This document shows, piece by piece, positions 19,262-62,749 of a DNA stretch of 64,000 nt; the first letter of the stretch is position 1, and every line of letters begins with the position of its first letter. The translations under genes were made by a program, and so were the position numbers. Origin of the DNA: Deroplatys truncata (taxonomy: Eukaryota > Arthropoda > Insecta > Mantodea > Mantidae); assembly GCA_030765065.1 (NCBI GenBank), contig CM060988.1, positions 173,951,065-174,015,064 of the forward strand, written 5' to 3'. The notes under the pieces were generated by a model. It ran no database searches and was not told where the DNA came from. It saw nothing but the letters and a program-made list of their open reading frames with translations.

Positions 19262-20251
19262 TCAGTGTTTGGAATGGATGCTAGTGATGTAACTTGGAGA
19301 ATAGGATGCGGCATACCCGCCATGCAGCCCTTCGCTAAGTCCACTGCTAAATCCGTGACTATAGGACGATCCGTACCCAGCACTTCCAAGGCTCAAGGAG
19401 CTGCTTGATGAGCCCAGCTTGTAGCCAGCCAGTCCCGAATAGCCAGAGGAGCCCAGACTTCCACCGCCAAGTCCCAGACTTCCACCTCCGAATCCTAGAC
19501 TTCCTCTACCAATTCCCAGACTTCCACCTCCAAGTCCCAGACTTCCTCCGCCAAATCCTCCAAGTCCACCGCCTACTCCCAAGCCTACAGCTGCCTGAGG
19601 TACAGCAACAGCTACAGGTTGGGGTACAGAGACAGCGACAGGTTGGGGTACGGCGATAGGGACTGCTACAGGTTGTGGTACGGGGACAGGGACGGGTCTA
19701 GGGACCGGCACAGGTACGGGCTGGGCCACAGGGACGGGAACGGGACGGGGAACGGACACGGGGACGGGTCTGACTACTGTAACTGGCACTGCCTGGGGTA
19801 CCGCCACTGGTACTGGCCTGGGAACTTCAACGGGATAAGGTGCAGGGACTGCAACGGGCACTGGGCGGTTGATGGTGACAGGGACGGGCTGGGGTACAGG
19901 TACGGCGACTTGTCGCGTGATGGTGGTCACTGCAGGAGCGGCAGCAATTGCGGGGGCGGCCACTGCAGCCGGAGCGGCGGCAGGCAGAAGTGCTGCCCCA
20001 CCAGAGAAAACCGAAGGACCTGCCGAAACTATCGAAGCCGGAGCGGCGGCGGACAGAAACGCCGCCCCACCAGATGCTAGTGCAGGCGCTGCATGGGAAG
20101 ACAGCAGTGAACCTCCTCCAGACACAATAGCTGGACCACCTAGACCATATCCATGGCCTCCGAAGAAAATACCACGTTTGTCTCTAGTGTCTGCTTCACC
20201 GCAGTGCGCCCTAGCGGAGATGTAGAGCGTGACCACACATATCTGAAACAT
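19262..20251 (-). CDS. Low-complexity structural (cuticular) protein, PV- and GGGSLG-repeat rich
   Basis: An uninterrupted 329-codon frame with strong compositional bias, typical of insect cuticle or eggshell structural proteins that are secreted and assemble extracellularly. Residues 1-17 may be the end of a signal peptide, followed by a dibasic DKRG at 24-27. Residues 30-110 are Ala/Gly/Ser-rich with AAPA units; 115-219 are a run of (R/Q)PVPV(A/P)VP units; 224-267 repeat GGGSLGLG-type units; 268-329 are Ser/Gly/Tyr-rich and end in SIHSKH. No chitin-binding R&R motif is visible, so a low-complexity proline-rich cuticle class (CPLCP-like) is the best guess. The ATG at 20251 lies inside a pyrimidine-rich TTTCAG acceptor-like context. 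The true start may therefore be in an upstream exon, with this exon beginning at 20242 (ATATGTGTGG). It is the only well-supported host gene here, with no disabling mutation. Confidence 0.75.
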   Translation of the reverse strand: MFQICVVTLYISARAHCGEADTRDKRGIFFGGHGYGLGGPAIVSGGGSLLSSHAAPALASGGAAFLSAAAPASIVSAGPSVFSGGAALLPAAAPAAVAAPAIAAAPAVTTITRQVAVPVPQPVPVTINRPVPVAVPAPYPVEVPRPVPVAVPQAVPVTVVRPVPVSVPRPVPVPVAQPVPVPVPRPVPVPVPQPVAVPIAVPQPVAVSVPQPVAVAVPQAAVGLGVGGGLGGFGGGSLGLGGGSLGIGRGSLGFGGGSLGLGGGSLGSSGYSGLAGYKLGSSSSSLSLGSAGYGSSYSHGFSSGLSEGLHGGYAASYSPSYITSIHSKH

Positions 20252-20262
20252 ACAGCAAACAA
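20243..20262 (-). other. Putative splice acceptor at the 5' end of the cuticle-type exon
   Basis: On the minus strand TTGTTTGCTGTATGTTTCAG ends at 20243. The tract and CAG match an insect 3' splice site. Cuticle genes commonly have a tiny first exon carrying the start codon and the first signal-peptide residues, which would lie to the right. I could not identify that exon with confidence between 20263 and 20480. Confidence 0.5.
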
Positions 20263-20485
20263 GGTCTTCAGACTTCGCGTCCTGCTCCGGTTCAGTGTGT
20301 TAATTTAGCTCAAAATTCACCAGCACTCCAAAAAGGCTAAGTAGATTTCATATAGCAAATCCGATGGACTTGGATGCGCAGTTTTAACGGTCACCCCACT
20401 AGAAAACTTTCAGCCAATCAGAATTAATTATGTCTTTCAGCTCATGCCATGCGGTCCTTTCCAATTAAGCAGTCTTGAGTACGTA

Positions 20486-33003: not shown

Positions 33004-33217
33004 TCGTAATAAGGTGTTTTTACCCATGATTGTGTACATGATTCCTCAAAATTGAAATTGAGCCTTTTAGTCTTGTAATGTCTATTTGTTTAACGATTTT
33101 TTTTAAATTTAAAATCACTCGCCGAACGTTAAGCCATGTATAGGGTCTTTCAACAAGAGTGTCCTAGCTTTAACATGTGATAGCTGCCGTTGTTATTGAG
33201 TTACAACAGTCATTTTT

Positions 33218-34133
33218 ACTTTCTCTACTACGTATAGTAAGTAGGGGAAGTATTGTATTCCACCCAAAAATTCGATACCAAGATTTCACCGGAAATACAT
33301 GTTTTGAGACCCCCTGAATCCAAAAAAAGCATTTTTGGAAACATGTCCGTGTATGTGTGTCTGTGTGTCTGCCTGTGTGTGTCTGTCTGTGAACAGCATA
33401 ACTCAGAAACGAACAGTCGGATAAACACCAATGTTGGTACTTAGATTCAGTATCTTCCAGAGATGCGACACGAAGGTTTTCAAGATAATCCCCCCACCCC
33501 AGATTACCCTTTACATGGAAGATTTTTCGAAAAGTTTAATTTTCTCAAAAATGCCTCTAACGATTTTGGTTAAAATAACATAGGTTTAAGATATTTTCAT
33601 GACAAATAAAATGTATATCTTGAATTTTCTGGGAATGTCTCCAAAAGTATTCTTCATTGTGAACGGCTTTTACATAACTGGTAAACCATAAGAGATGGAC
33701 AAAATTTTACTACACACAAAATGTAGATCGCGTTAAAATACTCAATTTATGTCATATACATTTTTTTTTGTTGAGTGAACCATTTTCGAGATATTGCTTG
33801 TTATTCCCTTACATTTTTCAATACTTATTTTCTAAAATGGGAATTCGTTATTCATTTTTTTGTGTTCGATATGCAAAGAGTTATAATCTGTGGCAAAGGG
33901 AATGGTGCTGCACCTAGCAACCAGCTATTAAGAGATATGTATGTGCTTAAAGGCTACTGTTTTTCTGTATTGCCCTTGTAAATATATTTTACCCTTACAT
34001 CTACAAGAAAATTAGCAATAAGATAGAGTCTGCAAATGTGTTTTTCGATTAACATGAAGTAGATGGAGAATAAGCGTTTGTAAAAATAGTTTGTACAAGA
34101 GTAGAGAAAGTCATGTGAGTGTAACACATCAGA
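33218..34133 (+). mobile_element. TTTCTCTACT-family HINE-like element in a mariner 5' UTR
   Basis: Left end ACTTTCTCTACTACGTATAG after five T; a GTGTGTCTGTGTGTCTGCCTG-type tract near 33356; right end AGTAGAGAAAGTCATGTGAG then TAACACATCAGA followed by seven T. This subfamily has a private block (AGAGTTATAATCTGTGGCAA, 33877) shared with 36183-36300 and 57992-58887. Confidence 0.9.
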
Positions 34134-34172
34134 TTTTTTTCATGTGGTTACAGATGTTATTGACAAATAGCC

Positions 34173-35243
34173 ATGAAACGTTACAGCATTCAGCAACCCG
34201 TAGAAATTGTGAAAATTTATTATCAAAATGGATCATCTGTTCGCCAAGGTTTCTGTGTATTGCGTGAAGTTTACGGTGTGCATAATCGTCCCTGCGAGAG
34301 AACGATTCGGCGTTTGATCGATAAATATGAAAGAAGTGGTTCTGTCAGCGATCAAAGAACGCCTGTACGTAATCGACGTAAGTGCTCCAACGAAAACATA
34401 GGCGCCGTTCGTGAGAGTATACGCGAGAATGGAAACAAATCAATTGCTCGTCGAGAGCAAGAATTGGGGCTTTCGCCGACCACAACTTGGCGAATCCTAC
34501 ATCTGGACTTGAAGTTTCACGCTTACAAAATGGTGTTAACTCAAGAACTAAAGCCCAAAGAACATAGGTTGCGCCGTGTATTCGCTGACTGGGTTATGGA
34601 ACAAACGGAAGCTGACCCGGATTTTTGTCCAAAAATCATCTTCAGCGACGAAGCCCACTTTTGGATGGATGGTTGTGTTAGCAAACAAAATTGCCGCTAT
34701 TGGAGCAATCACAATCCAATGCAGATCCAAGAACGACCACTTCATCACCAAAAGGTTACTGTGTGGTGTGGATTTTGCTATGGTAGAATCATTGGTCCAT
34801 ATTTTTTCCAAGATGAAGATGGAGAAGCTCTGTCATTGGAGAAAGATACCGGGCTCTTATAAGGGACTAGTTTTGGCTTCAATTAGATGGTGTGGATCTC
34901 AGAAACATCCCGTTCCAGCAAGATGGTGCCACATGCCATACTGCTCTCGAAACAATCGATCTTTTGAAGGAGAAGTTCAGAGGTTTCATCATCTCCCGTG
35001 TGGTGATGTTAACTGGCCTCCGATGTCATGTGATTTAACGCCGTTGGATTACTTCTTGTGGGGTTATGTTAAATCTCGAGTTTATGTCAACAAGCCAGAA
35101 ACAGTAAATGATCTTATGAATAACACCACGCGTGTTATTCGTGAAGTTGGACCTAATTTACGTTCTTCTGTCATTGAAAATTAGGTCAACCGTAGTCGCG
35201 CAACCCAACGAAGTCGCGGTGGTCACTTAACTGATGTTCTCTT
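34173..35243 (+). pseudogene. Mariner-like transposase, inactivated by frameshifts
   Basis: Starts MKRYSIQQPVEIVKIYYQNG, a helix-turn-helix segment with RTIRRLIDKYERSGSV, followed by a second DNA-binding helix region (SIARREQELGLSPTTTWRIL). IIFSDEAHFWMDG (first Asp near 34650) and VTVWCGF follow. The frame ends at 34862; NIPFQQDGATCHTALETIDL (second Asp near 34923) lies in the frame entered after a shift. Another shift leads to DVNWPPMSCDLTPLDYFLWG (third Asp near 35037) and KSRVYVNKPETV. A TAG interrupts at 35182-35184 before RSRGGHLTDVLFHT. The Asp spacing is close to 36 residues, unlike the DD34D mariners elsewhere in the window, so it is a different clade. Two frameshifts and one nonsense codon make it recent but dead. 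Confidence 0.85.
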
Positions 35244-35365
35244 CCACACGTAATGACATTAATTATGTTTCAAAATAAAAAATAAATAAACCTCTATCGT
35301 TTATAGAACGTGTTTTACTTAAGTTCAAAGATAGGACACTCTTGTTGAAAGACCTTATATATAGC

Positions 35366-36030: not shown

Positions 36031-36821
36031 TCTGATGTGTTACACTCACATGACTTTCTCTACTCTTGTACAAACTATTTTTACAAGCGCTTATTCTCCA
36101 TATGCTTCATGTTAAACGAGATAAGCATTTGCAGAAACTATCTTATTGCTAATTTTCTTGTAGATGTAAGGGGAATATATATTTACAAGGGCAATATAGA
36201 AATACAGTAGCCTTTAAGCACATACATGTCTCTTAATAGCTGATTGCTAGGTGCAGCACTATTTCCTTTGCCACAGATTAATACTCTTTGCATATCCAAG
36301 ACAAAAAAAATGAATAACGAATTCCCATTTGTGAAAATAAGTATTGAAAAATTTAAGGGAATAACAAGCAATATCTCGAAAATGGTTCACTCAACAACAA
36401 AAATGTATATGCCATAAATTGTGTATTTTAACGCGATCTACATTGTTTGTCTAGTAAAATTTTGTCTATCTCTTATGGTTTACCAGTTATGCAAAAGTCG
36501 TTCACAATGAAGAATACTTTTGGAGACATTCCCAGAAAATTCAAGATATACATTTTATTTGTCATGAAAATATCTTAAACATATGATATTTTAATCAAAA
36601 TCGTTAGAGCCATTTTTGAGAAAATTAAAATTTTCGAAAAATGTTCCATGTAAAGGATAATCTGGAGTGGGGGGATTTTCTTGAAAACCTTCGTGTCTCA
36701 TCTCTGGAAGATACTGAACCTAAATACCAAGTTTGGTGTTTATCCGACTGTTTGTTTCTGAGTTATGCTGTTCACAGACAGACAGACACACACCCGGAAA
36801 TGTTTCCAAAAATGCTTTTTT

Positions 36822-37719
36822 ACTTTCTCTACTACGTATAGTAAGTAGGGGAAGTATTGCATTCCACCCAAAAATTCGATACCGAGATTTCACCGGAAAT
36901 ACATGTTTTGAGACTCACTGAATCCAAAAAAATCATTTTTGGAAACATGTCCGTGTGTGTGTCTGTCTGTGTGTCTGTCTGTGTGTCTGTGTGTCTGTCT
37001 GTGTGTCTGTGTGTCTGTGTGTCTGTGAACAGCATAACTCAAAAACGAAGAGTCGGATAAACACCAAACTTGGTATTTGGGTTCAGTATCTTCCAGAGAT
37101 GCGACACGAAGGTTTTCAAGAAAATCCCCCTACCCCAGACTACGCTTTACATGGAACATTTTTCGAAAATGTTAATTTTCTCAAAAACGGCTCTAACGAT
37201 TTTGATTAAAATATCATATGTTTAAGATATTGTCATGACAAATAAAATGTATATCTCGAATTTTCTGGGAATGTCTCCAAAAGTATTCTTCATTATGAAC
37301 GACTTTTTCATAACTGGTAAACCATAAGAGATAGACAAAATTTTACTACACAAAAAATGTAGATCGCGTTAAAATACTCAACTTATGTCATATACATTTC
37401 TTTTGTTGAGTGAACCGTTTGCGATATATTGCTTGTTATTCCCTTAAATTTTCCAATACTTATACTTTTCCTCAAATTCTTTATTCATTTTTTTTAAGTC
37501 CTGGACATGCAAAGAGAATGGAATGCGCCACACAGCAACCAGCGTTAAAATATTTGACTATCACTTAAAAGCTACCATATTCCCCTTGCATCTACAAGAA
37601 AATTACCAATAAGATTGACATCTCGATATCTCGATTAACATGAACCATATGGAGAATAGGCGTTTGTAAAAATAGATTGTACAAGAGTAGAGAAAGTCAT
37701 GTGAGTGTAACACATCAGA
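36822..37719 (+). mobile_element. TTTCTCTACT-family HINE-like element nested in its own family
   Basis: Complete: left end ACTTTCTCTACTACGTATAG, right end AGTAGAGAAAGTCATGTGAG then TAACACATCAGA. It is inserted inside the T-run of the reverse copy 36031-37852. Six T remain on the left and seven on the right, while the unoccupied site in the copy at 27578-28430 has seven T. Confidence 0.9.
36952..37027 (+). repeat. GTGT/GTCT microsatellite inside the HINE-like element
   Basis: Interspersed TGTG and TCTG units form the longest version of the tract carried by almost every copy of the family at this position. Length varies between copies, as expected for a hypermutable repeat. In Drosophila DINE-1 elements a GTCY tract occupies a comparable position. 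Confidence 0.85.
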
Positions 37720-37852
37720 TTTTTTTGGATTCAGGGGATCCCAAAACATGTATTTCCGGTGAAATCTCGGTATCGAATTTTTGGGTGGAATACAATTTTT
37801 CCCCTACTTACTATACGTAGTAGAGAAGGTCATGTGAATGTAGCACATCAGA

Positions 37853-43051: not shown

Positions 43052-43926
43052 ACTTTCTCTACTACGTATAGTAAGTAGGGGAAGTATTGTATTCCACCCA
43101 AAATTTCGATACCGAGATTTCACCGGAAATACATGTTTTGAGACCCCTGAAGCCAAAAAAAGCATTTTGGAAACATGTCCGTGTGAGTGTCTGTGTGTCT
43201 GTCTGTGTGTGTGTCTGTCTGTGTGTGTCTGTGAACAGCATAACTCAGAAAGGAACAGTCGGATAAACACCAAACTTGGTATTTAGGTTCAGTATCTTCC
43301 AAGGATGCGACACGAAGGTTTTCAAGAAAATCCCTCCACCCCAGAGTACCCTTTACATGGAAGATTTTCCGAAAATTTTAATTTTCTCAAAAATGGCTCT
43401 AACGATTTTGATTAAAATATCATATGTTTAAGATATTTTTATGACAAATAAAATGTATATCTTGAATTTTCTGGGAATGTCTCCAAAAGTATTCTTCATT
43501 GTGAACGACTTTTTCATAACTGGTAAACCATAAGAGATAGACAAAATTTTACTACACAAAAAACGTAGATCGCGTTAAAATACACAATTTATGTCATATA
43601 CATTTTTTTTAGTTGAGTGAACCATCTTCGAGATATTGCTTGTTATTCCCTTAAATTTTCCAATACTTATACTTTTTCTCAAATTCGTTATTCAATTTTT
43701 TATATCCTGGATATGCAAACAGAATGGAATGCGCCACATAGCAACCAGCGCTTAAAAGATTTGTCTATCGCTTATAACCTACCATGTTCCCCTTGCATCT
43801 ACAAGAAAATTAACAATAAGATTGACATCTCGATATCTCGAGTAACATGAAGCATATGGAGAATAAATGTTTGTAAAAATAGTTTGTACAAGAGTAGAGA
43901 AAGTCATGTGAGTGTAACACATCAGA
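43052..43926 (+). mobile_element. TTTCTCTACT-family HINE-like element in a mariner 5' UTR
   Basis: Complete ends (ACTTTCTCTACTACGTATAG; AGTAGAGAAAGTCATGTGAG then TAACACATCAGA) with six T on each side. A GTCTGTGTGTGTGTCTGTC tract lies at 43191. The mariner sequence resumes directly with TCTTTAGATTGAAGTTCAGA. Confidence 0.9.
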
Positions 43927-57367: not shown

Positions 57368-59065
57368 ACTTTCTCTACTACGTAGAGTAAGTAGGGGAAG
57401 TATAGCATTCCATCCAAAAATTCTATATAGAGATTTCATTCGGAAATACATGTTTTGAGGTGCCCTGAAACCAAATAAACAATTTTTGGAAACATACCCA
57501 TGTATGTGACTATGTGCCTGTCTGTGAACAGCATAACTCAAAAATGAAAAGTCAGATATATACCAAACGTGGTACTTGAGTTTAGTATCTTCCGAAAATG
57601 CGATACGAAGATTTTTAAGAAAATCCTCCCCACCCCAGACTACCCTTTATATGGAACGTTTTTGCGGAGATTTTGATTTTCTCAAAAATGGCTCTAAGGA
57701 TTTTGATTAAAATACCATAGGTTTAAGATATTTTCATGGCAAATGAAATATATATCTAGAATTTTCTGGGACTGTCCACAAAAGTTCTCTTCATTCTGAA
57801 TGACTTTCGCACAACTGATAAACCGTGAGAGATAGACAAAATTTTACCACACAAAATATTAGATCTCGTTAAAACACACAGTTTATGTCACATGCATTTA
57901 TTTTCTCGAGTGAACCATTTCCGAGATATTCCTTGTTATTTCTTTGAATTTTCCAATACTTATACTTTTTCTCAAATGGGAATTCGTTATTATTTTCTCT
58001 ACCACGTATAGTAAGTAGGGGAAGTATTGTATTCCACCCAAAATTTCGATACCGAGATTTCACCGGAAATACATGTTTTGAGACCCCTGAATCCAAAAAA
58101 AGCATTTTTGGAAACATGTCCGTGTGTGTGTCTGTGTGTGTCTGTGAACAGCATAACTCAGAAACGAACAGTCGGATAAACACCAAACTTGGTATTTGGG
58201 TTCAGTATCTTCCAAGGATGCGACACGAAGGTTTTCAAGAAAATCCCCCACCCCACATTACCCTTTACATGGAAGATTTTTCTAAAATTTTAATTTTCTC
58301 AAAAATGGCTTTAACCATTTTGATTAAAATATCATATGTTTAAGATATTTTTATGACAAATAAAATGTATATCTGGAATTTCCTGGGAATGTCTCCAAAA
58401 GTATTCTTTATTGTGAACGACTTTTGCATAATTGGTAAACCATAAGAGATAGACAAAATTTTACTACACAAAAAATGTAGATCGCGTTAAAATACGCAAT
58501 TTATGTCATTTACATTTTTTTTGTTGAGTGAACCATTTTCGAGATATTGCTTGTTATTCCCTTAAATTTTTCAATACTTATTTTCTCAAATGGGAATTCG
58601 TTATTCATTTTTTTTTGTTTTGTATATGCAAAGAGTATTAATCTGTGGCAAAGGGAATGGTGCTGCACCTAGCAACCAGCTATTAAGAGATATGTATGTG
58701 CTTAAAGGCTACTGTTTTTCTATATTGCCCTCGTAAATATATTTTCCCCTACATCTACAAGAAAATTAGCAATAAGATAGAGTTTGCAAATGTTTATCTC
58801 GATTAACATGAACTAGATGGAGAATAAGCGTTTGTAAAAATACTTTGTACAAGAGTAGAGAAAGTCATGTGAGTGTAACACATCAGATTTTTCGTTTTTT
58901 TATGTCATGGACGCACAAAGAGAATGGAGTGCCCTACATAGCAACCAGCGCTTAAAAGATTTGACTATCGCTTATAACCTACCATGTTCCCCTTGCACGT
59001 ACAGGAAAATTAGCAATGAGATAGTTTCTGCAAATGTTTATCTCGATTAACATGATGCAGATGAA
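57368..59065 (+). repeat. TTTCTCTACT-family copy with a nested young copy
   Basis: Left end ACTTTCTCTACTACGTAGAG at 57368. It is interrupted at 57991 and continues at 58888 with TTTTTCGTTTTTTTATGTCA through GCAACCAGCGCTTAAAAGAT to TCTCGATTAACATGATGCAG. The right terminus is missing. Confidence 0.8.
57992..58887 (+). mobile_element. TTTCTCTACT-family HINE-like element nested in its own family
   Basis: Left end ATTTTCTCTACCACGTATAG (one terminal change), GTGTGTGTGTCTGTGTGTG tract at 58122, right end AGTAGAGAAAGTCATGTGAG then TAACACATCAGA. It belongs to the subfamily with the AATCTGTGGCAAAGGGAATG block. Confidence 0.85.
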
Positions 59066-60948: not shown

Positions 60949-61575
60949 CAACAGCGGAAAGTACACATTTACGGAATTAATATCTTTAATGCTTTCAGAA
61001 CTTGAATTTTGAGTATCATCCTGGTTGATAGGAATGGTTTCTCGTCTACCACGATTTCTGTCCATAATTTCCATTTTATTCCGTTTCCTTCTCATCTTCC
61101 AGGCGTGCTTCTAGTTTTCGTAGCGTATGGTGGTGCCGGACAGATGCCGCGGATGTTTACTCAAAGGACACTAGAGGGCTGCTTGGTCCACGGGTCGTTC
61201 ATCGTCTTCTCTAGGTAGCTGCAGCAGTGGGACGGGTCTTCGAAGCTAGAATTGTTTGAGACTTCCGCGCGTCTCTGTGGCCTGTCTGCCTGAGGCCTAT
61301 AATATCTTGTAGTTCCCTCACTTTACATTTTCCTCCTGTGGGTTATAGCCTCAATAGAGCTATGTAGGTGTCAGTGCGCGAGGTGTCCCCCTCTGTTGTA
61401 TTGTCACATATATTTATATTATAAACAAAAAAAAATTGTGTGCGGGGTGCGCGCTTGCTGCAGCCAGTTTTATTAAGGCTTTCTCTATTGGAAATAATTG
61501 TTCTTCCCGACGGACACAGGCTATAATACACCTTCTAATATCAATTCCTAAATGACTGAAAGACTGAAGAGGATA
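60949..61575. other. No gene seen (60949-61575)
   Basis: A stretch around 61120-61300 is GC-richer, with a short open frame at 61009-61218 that shows no domain. An A-run lies at 61426-61435. Confidence 0.35.
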
Positions 61576-62749
61576 CACGAGGGCGGTCCCAGAAGTACCC
61601 ATAATTGTTTGGCAGCCATCAATAGTGAACTCTCTCAGCGAATTTGTAAACATGGATGAAACTGGCCATCGTTATGTGATACAATACTTTCATTTGAAAG
61701 ATCTTAGTCCAACTAATATTAATGCTGAGCTAGATTCTACTCTGGGGGAGTCTGCTCCTTCGTTTACAACAGTAAAATATTGGGTGGCAGAGTTTAAGCG
61801 AGGCCGTACGAGCTGCCAAGACGAACATCGCAATGGTCAACCAAATGAGGTGACCACGCCAGAAATTGTGAAGAAAATCTACAAAATTGTGTTGGATGAC
61901 TGTCGACTGAAAGTGCGCGAGCTAGCAGACATCATAGGCATTTCAAAAAGTGCTGTACATCGCATACTGACTGAAAATTTAGACATGAGAAAGCTGTGAG
62001 CAAGGTGGGTGCCGCGTTTACTCACAATGGAACAACAGCAGCATCGTGAGGATGTTTCAGTCGAGTGCTGCAATAAAGCCAAGTTTTTGCGTCGATTCAT
62101 AACCATGGATGAAACATGGGTCTATCACTTCACACCTGAGACGAAGGAACAGACAAAGCAATGGATTGAAAGGGGAGAATCAGCTTCAAAGAAGGCGAAG
62201 ACAGTACCATCTGCAGGCAAGGTCATGGCGTCAGATTTTTGGGATGTGCGTGGGATAATTTTTATTGATTATCTTCAAAAAGAAAAAGCAATCAATGACG
62301 AGTATTATGGAACTTATTGCAGCGTTTGAATAACGAAATCAAGAAAAAACGGCCGCATTTAGCGAAAAATAAAGTTCTGTTTCATCAAGACAATGCACCA
62401 GTTCATACATCCATTATCGCCATGGCCAAAATCAATGAATTAAAGTTCGAATTGCTTCCTCGTACACCCTATTCGCCAGACTTAGCCCCCTCTGATTATT
62501 TTCTGTTTCCAAAGTTCAAGAAATGGCTTGGTGGTAAAAGATTTGCCAACAATGAATAGCTGGAGTTTGCAGTTGATGGCTATTTTGCAGAACACGACGG
62601 TTCTCACTATAAACAGGGTATCGAAGCTGTTGAGCATTGCTGAGAAAAGTGTATCGAACTGAAAGGAGACTATGTAGAGAAATAAAAATGTTTTTTCCCA
62701 ATATTTTTTGTTTTCTTTGTTAGGTCGGGTACCCCTGGGGCAGCCCTCG
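61576..62749 (+). pseudogene. Mariner (DD34D) transposase, best-preserved copy
   Basis: TIRs CGAGGGCGGTCCCAGAAGTA (left) and, inverted, CGAGGGCTGCCCCAGGGGTA (right) are near TA sites. Translation starts at 61652 with MDETGHRYVIQYFHLKDLSP; the HTH region includes SAPSFTTVKYWVAEFKRG and LADIIGISKSAVHRILTENL. A TGA at 61997-61999 replaces the expected Cys codon before ARWVPRLL. FLRRFITMDETWVYHF (first Asp near 62110), SAGKVMASDFW, VLFHQDNAPVHTS (second Asp near 62389) and PYSPDLAPSDYFLFP (third Asp) are intact, with 34 residues between the last two. There is a small deletion near 62067, a frameshift near 62307, and TAG/TGA stops at 62557 and 62641, before CIELKGDYVEK. Few lesions suggest a comparatively recent loss. 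Confidence 0.95.

Follow-up and report, generated by a model that had tools for sequence, protein, structure and literature searches.

A non-coding, very probably Helentron-mobilised element family in Deroplatys truncata and the endonuclease-encoding Helentrons that share its ends

Within the 64,000-nucleotide stretch of Deroplatys truncata DNA analysed here (the window), a complete 916-bp copy of a non-coding mobile element of about 0.9 kb lies on the plus strand at 33218-34133, inserted in a DNA transposon that carries a DUF4817 helix-turn-helix (Table 1). A preliminary description had reported a fixed architecture for complete copies of this element, and in the window copy all of its parts are in place: a TACTA-CGTA-TAGTA stem-loop overlapping the left end, a GT/GTCT tract that had been put at about 120-200 bp in and lies 127-174 bp in, and on the right side an inverted 12-mer followed by the ATGTG-CACAT hairpin and by CAGA at a T-run. 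On the left the inverted repeat forms the very end of the element, and on the right it lies 22 bp inside. Allowing up to two mismatches, we counted 57 occurrences of the 12-mer in the window where 7.6 were expected, and none of 100 shuffles reached 57. An imperfect hairpin, in which ACTTTCTCTACT pairs with AGTAGGGGAAGT, is formed by the first 34 nt of the element (z -2.05). In stability the 3' hairpin does not surpass shuffled sequences (z -0.22 over 22 nt and -0.72 over 40 nt), so that its support comes from conservation and not from folding energy.

Table 1. Features of the element copy at 33218-34133, of its host and of related copies in the window.
Feature	Position	Strand	Basis or remark
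Left inverted end of host DNA transposon	33133..33171	+	Inverted match to 35327-35365, 89.7%
T5 left of element	33213..33217	+	Target and/or element-borne
Complete element copy, very probably a HINE (non-autonomous Helentron)	33218..34133	+	End sequences, genome matches
5' inverted repeat ACTTTCTCTACT	33218..33229	+	
5' imperfect hairpin	33218..33251	+	Folding; includes TACTA-CGTA-TAGTA (33226-33239)
GT/GTCT (GTCY-like) microsatellite	33344..33391	+	127-174 bp in from left end
Internal T7	33855..33861	+	Recurrent insertion site for other copies in related elements
3' inverted repeat AGTAGAGAAAGT	34100..34111	+	Exact inverted 12-mer
3' hairpin ATGTG-7 nt-CACAT	34113..34129	+	
3' terminal CAGA	34130..34133	+	Followed by seven T
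T7 right of element	34134..34140	+	
Rest of host DNA transposon	34134..35365	+	DUF4817 helix-turn-helix, frame 34167-34859
Full copy	36822..37719	+	Nested in inverted older copy (36031-36821 and 37720-37830)
Full copy	43052..43926	+	84.6% to the 33218 copy
Full copy	57992..58887	+	Inserted at TTATT^CG of older copy beginning 57368
Mos1-type fragment (HTH_48)	61568-61996		Second mariner-like relic

The architecture recurs beyond this copy. Among 38 distinct two-ended copies from the window and from fetched loci, which were picked by their end sequences with up to six differences allowed, so that the scores of the ends are biased upward, the left 12-mer was present with at most one mismatch in 37, the TACTA-CGTA-TAGTA stem with at most one mismatch in all 38, the microsatellite in 37, the right 12-mer with at most one mismatch in 36, the exact ATGTG-CACAT hairpin in 32 and the CAGA end in 33, and 25 of the 38 had all six features together.

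With the window copy as query, 6108 first-look candidates were obtained in the 4.29-Gb genome, not every one of which need be a member, and all 40 that were scored proved near full length at 91-100% identity. The copy at 43052-43926, used as a second query, gave 5769 candidates, a set that surely overlaps with the first, and again 40 of 40 scored were near full length. The family makes up 27.8% of the window and is dominant there, as had been claimed. Its dominance is shown for the window only: the family accounted for 6.7% of 20 random 1-kb stretches (bootstrap interval 0-18%; 0% in reversed controls), being present in two of them and in none of the other 18. Abundance alone would not be new, because Helitron-rich orthopteran genomes, in which these elements reach 17-22% of assemblies, are already recorded in the part of PMC7754599 at hand. 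As for the nesting described earlier, the copies inside older copies of the element and the 33218 copy inside the DUF4817 transposon stand; of the copies said to lie in two mariners, the second, Mos1-type fragment is present, but an element inside it could not be confirmed. In a fetched locus (L027) both flanks of the element match overlapping parts (about 546-608) of one and the same element, and for this reason that host is considered rearranged. Elsewhere in the window, tandem repeats of 21-30 bp at 19452-19693 lie within a minus-strand open frame of 345 aa (19262-20299) that has no Pfam match.

Flanks were counted at 62 left and 51 right ends, which remained of 72 and 60, respectively, after removal of duplicates and of ends without ACT or CAGA. 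The insertion between Ts that had been proposed is borne out, T being found at -1 and -2 in all 62 left flanks, with a sharp T5 edge and a run exactly five long in 30, and at positions 1-5 in 90-98% of the right flanks, five of which do not start with T. Because L004 and L020 each enter with two 3' ends, the 41 end pairs represent 39 distinct 5' ends. TTTTT flanks the element on either side in 25 of the pairs. In seven others, from six distinct 5' ends, the left flank has A at -3 and the right flank is TTTTT, and the remaining nine depart from T5 on one side (eight pairs) or on both (GTTTT/ATTTT). The non-T letters of the left 5-mer are not mirrored on the right.

Empty sites tell what is gained on insertion. 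The host transposon of the window copy lacks the element at this site in all 14 fetched copies, which have T7 (11 copies), T8 (one) or T7 with one substitution (two), and its filled site has five plus seven T. A second host has the empty site CTATTTTTT, with CTATTTTTTAGG in six of eight fetched copies and T7 in the other two, and reads CTATT, element, T10 AGG when filled. The empty-site search gave 14 matches, eight of which were dropped: L001, which is the window copy and so repeats another match, L003, which was weak, four with the element's own junction in the same locus (L006, L025, L063 and the second copy of L030) and two with another element at the same place (L015 and the first copy of L030). 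The second host joins the six clean cases that remained as a seventh. Five letters were gained at four sites (the host transposon, window 57992, L004 and the element nested in L069), four at L028, seven at window 36822 and six at the second host. At window 57992, TTATT^CG became TTATT plus TTTTTCG; at L004 the element has TTTTT on its left and TTATT on its right, so one gained letter is A. At these seven clean sites, with gains of 4-7 letters that are mostly T, no clear sequence duplication was seen, and the joined flanks of L011 gave no contiguous empty site among the 40 places listed. We read the gained Ts as borne by the element, without target duplication, although part of the count may be slippage. 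For HINEs, likewise, Ts carried by the element and no target duplication are described in the part of PMC4067079 at hand. A fixed-length duplication with symmetric terminal inverted repeats, against which the preliminary description had set its own reading, was not found, the inverted repeat being asymmetric and the flank letters unmirrored.

A profile search for Helitron_like_N gave 152 matches (150 of the 291 candidates being scored) and revealed two kinds of Rep in the genome, Helentron-type with RGSPHEH and Helitron-type with RGL. All ten loci L051-L060 have EFQMRGSPHEH, in agreement with the ExQxRGSPHxH motif of Helentrons (S, not L), and stop-to-stop open frames of at least 2000 aa, the longest of 2543 aa, were found in at least 18 Helentron-type matches among those listed. 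Both sides were read in six Helentron copies with long frames, and in two further copies the 3' side alone; these two had been picked as possible other lineages, and both turned out to be of the same lineage as the rest (99% over 1.1-1.2 kb). The element's first 747-767 bp open the 5' sides of all six at 88-90% (BLAST), one Helentron being identical to the 5' 767 bp of the element in 708 of 766 aligned columns (MAFFT), and the element's last 33 bp close all eight 3' sides at 94%. The preliminary description had asked for an autonomous Rep/helicase partner with the same termini, and such a partner therefore exists. Of the inverted repeat, 11 of 12 bp, contiguous, are present in the Helentron. 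One Helentron unit measures 10.4 kb and lies within the T-run of an older element, whose sequence continues on the far side. The last 1190 bp of the six Helentrons have pairwise identities of 99.2-99.8%, and they are recent on that account. Over the last 60 bp, Helentron and window copy are identical at 38 of 60 positions, outside the published subfamily rule, by which, judging from these alignments, the two belong to the same family and to different subfamilies. In none of the eight Helentron 3' ends did we find element positions 768-883, and because of this and of the 38/60 match we do not regard the direct parent as found. In L069 a full element (1978-2926) is nested in the 5' region, after base 747, of a Helentron with a 2408-aa open frame, and the leaders of the Helentron gene in L063, L065, L067, L071 and C5 contain inverted element pieces in two arrangements. 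A Rep match beside an element fragment at L040 was set aside as a chance neighbour, the gene being on the opposite strand.

The protein of the C5 copy, in a frame of 2326 aa counted from the first Met, comprises a tegument-like protease region, charged 21-aa repeats, DUF6570, Rep and a PIF1 helicase, with Pfam E-values of 1.6e-9 (Herpes_teg_N), 4.5e-11 (DUF6570), 5.9e-29 (Helitron_like_N) and 2.4e-29 (PIF1). Solved structures matched by the Rep/helicase part are PIF1-type helicases and Helraiser, all in the helicase part, and PDB sequence matches of the protease region are weak (E 0.01 for the best, a tegument protein, and 0.017 for 8add_A, which we take to be a structure from the study of VTD-containing zebrafish Helentrons). 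The protease region has the motifs QCTSN and FDPH, the latter fitting the Asp-x-His described in the part of PMC9741609 at hand. In the open frame of L061+L062, a long array of charged 21-aa tandem repeats extends over about aa 320-740 of the 2326-aa frame; open-frame lengths vary among Helentron copies, perhaps through this array. An endonuclease lies C-terminal to the helicase. It is frameshifted in the C5 copy; the other five of the 3' regions initially read have its second half in one open frame, and in L115 the endonuclease joins the helicase in frame and without interruption, so that the AP-type endonuclease fused C-terminally to Rep/helicase by which Helentrons are defined is found there, with an Exo_endo_phos_2 score (2e-6, 28.1 bits) just above the cut-off of 27.4 bits. 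The second half alone in L068 scored 23.3 bits, under that cut-off. A genome-wide endonuclease search, with 150 of 25627 candidates scored, made no Helentron stand out among these, and the matches among the 150 are taken for LINE endonucleases. No RPA gene was recognised in the scanned parts of the Helentron, a 100-aa frame in its 3' region had no Pfam match, no part of the Helentron protein is encoded in the window (E 1e-3), and no relative was found among the viral contigs scanned.

In four of the six Helentrons (L063, L065, L067 and L069) an element piece cut at the internal T-run precedes the Helentron. These outer pieces are mutually 97.4-99.4% identical; independent copies are 92.0-96.6% identical (60 pairs from 31 copies). 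The flanks upstream of the outer piece are unrelated (42-50% among L063, L065 and L067), in L069 another element ends directly upstream of it, and L071 and the C5 copy have different outer pieces, at 91.9-94.3% to the rest. Downstream, the element resumes in L066 and L070, the 3' sides of L065 and L069, and its remainder is absent, within the 1.2 kb read, from L064 and L068, the 3' sides of L063 and L067. Most simply, L065 would resemble a nested donor, and the others would be units that started from the 5' end of the element and ended at the 3' end of the Helentron; a start/stop model of this type has been proposed for Fusarium elements with several 5' termini, according to the part of PMC5148889 at hand. 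These composite units support the idea that the Helentron machinery can use the 5' end of the element. Helentron units occupy the same internal T-run in the C5, L065, L069 and L071 loci. Element sequence from the T-run on was found at the 3' side of 7 of 40 scored copies with the 43052 query and of 2 of 40 with the 33218 query, and the 3' end of another copy lay at most 25 bp upstream in 7 of 40 (43052 query). Tandem rolling-circle arrays were rejected as the sole cause of head-to-tail copies, several of which are insertions into T7 (element positions 638-644).

With high confidence we regard the element as a HINE, non-coding and related to a resident endonuclease-encoding Helentron that very probably copies it by rolling circle. 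The genome has the shared ends, the Rep, helicase and endonuclease domains in frame, the empty sites, the nesting and the composite unit at several places; the enzymology, and the movement of these copies by this Helentron protein, we infer from the sequences. The protein would very probably recognise the shared 5' end, one strand would be unwound up to the first shared 3' end (12-mer, ATGTG..CACAT hairpin and CAGA), and the copy would be joined into a T-run with about five T added and the target otherwise unchanged. Against this explanation count the 38/60 match of the last 60 bp, the lack of element positions 768-883 in the eight Helentron 3' ends, the frameshift in the C5 endonuclease, the near-cut-off endonuclease score and the L004 flanks (TTTTT left, TTATT right). 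The Helentron association proposed in the preliminary description is accordingly supported by the shared ends and the C-terminal endonuclease of the partner, and qualified by the difference in subfamily and by the gain of about five T.

The flanks could also be those of a MITE that a DDE transposase moves by cut and paste, duplicating a 5-bp TTTTT target, given that exactly five letters were gained at four of the seven clean empty sites, that the left T-run is sharply five long (30 of 62) and that TTTTT/TTATT at L004 is also expected from a duplication with one mutation. However, TTTTT follows on the right in each of the seven pairs whose left flank has A at -3, and the CTATT host site is followed by T10 and not by a copy of CTATT; on the unmirrored letters and on this site the duplication was dismissed. 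The element also lacks the terminal inverted repeats at both ends and the fixed duplication of DDE MITEs, its inverted repeats not being both terminal, and the partner found is a Rep/helicase, which leaves a DDE MITE very improbable. That a canonical Helitron, inserting at A^T and ending in CTRR, is the mover we find scarcely credible. The RGL Rep motif is indeed present in 9 of the 20 loci L031-L050 (RGLPHAH in 7, the pattern being unmatched in the other 11), but 17 of the 20 highest-scoring Rep matches have stop codons, and a canonical partner was dismissed on these and on the Rep motif types. Moreover, where a canonical Helitron has 5' TC, 3' CTRR and an A^T target, the element has 5' ACTTT, 3' CAGA(T) and a T-run, and the shared ends sit on the Helentron type.

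As a variant of the HINE explanation, it is a substantial possibility, though not the one we favour, that the element is mobilised mainly by another Helentron subfamily, extinct or unsampled, and that the Helentrons found are close cousins: the 38/60 match and the lack of positions 768-883 in the eight 3' ends speak for it, whereas the agreement of the 5' 767 bp in 708 of 766 columns, and the composite unit, which is consistent with joint use of an element 5' end and a Helentron 3' end, speak against it. Segmental duplication, which can copy nested elements too, might instead of composite transposition have spread the outer piece common to four Helentrons, but on the left the resemblance goes no further than the 5' end of the element, and L064 and L068 have different 3' flanks beyond CAGA, and we consider it unlikely.

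Returning to a HINE copied by a Helentron, we tentatively propose a cycle in which Helentrons would enter the T-run of older elements, exit from those elements' 5' ends and stop at their own 3' end, the gene riding on element-derived 5' ends and being rebuilt repeatedly on its non-coding relatives. To our knowledge, Helentron movement has not yet been reconstituted. This genome offers near-identical Helentrons with in-frame domains, exact ends, an abundant non-coding partner and clean empty sites, as well as the nested locus L065/L066 beside its composite relatives L063/L064, L067/L068 and L069/L070, and with these copies and loci a model of one-ended start and stop at the first terminator becomes testable. 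The family illustrates a way in which rolling-circle elements may add DNA to a large genome, and it is well suited to tests of where these elements begin and end their copying.

The family appears to be new, in a class that is already known. By title, no name for it was found in the openly accessible Helentron and Orthoptera literature, and of the openly accessible papers matched by its terminal sequences none was, by title, on a transposon. The properties that define HINEs are found in it: subterminal inverted repeats that agree over at least 11 bp (in the window copy over all 12), a palindromic sequence close to the 3' end (ATGTG-CACAT, unaltered in 32 of 38 copies), a T-rich target with at least two T on each side, no target site duplication, provided that the 4-7 T gained are attributed to Ts brought in by the element and to slippage, and ends shared with an endonuclease-encoding Helentron.

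The comparisons that follow rest on the parts of the cited sources at hand. VTD-containing zebrafish Helentrons (PMC9741609) likewise have a tegument-like deubiquitinase with Asp-x-His in the Helentron open frame, the counterpart here being one predicted domain. The FoHeli Helitron2 elements of Fusarium (PMC5148889) also occur as composites that combine several 5' termini with a single 3' terminus, which that study attributes to self-insertion followed by termination at the first 3' end, but they are fungal elements without an endonuclease domain, and their duplicated 5' pieces are typically shorter than 200 bp, against about 640 bp here. DINE-1/INE-1 of Drosophila, as described in PMC4067079, shares the asymmetric inverted repeats, with a short inverted repeat nested in the 5' repeat, the microsatellite, the 3' stem-loop and the TT target. 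HINE-Mo and HINE-Cq, from a mite and from Culex (Thomas et al. 2014, PMC4067079), differ in their terminal sequence, as far as seen; unlike theirs, the 3' likeness to the Helentron is limited here to 33 bp, and unlike their partners, the Helentron here has a tegument-like protease region and charged repeats, and an RPA gene was not recognised in the parts scanned. In the rest they are alike, with palindromic subterminal inverted repeats of 12-15 bp, the 3' one more internal, a 3' hairpin, a microsatellite in some copies, a T-run target, element-borne Ts without target duplication, and an origin from an endonuclease-encoding Rep/helicase element.
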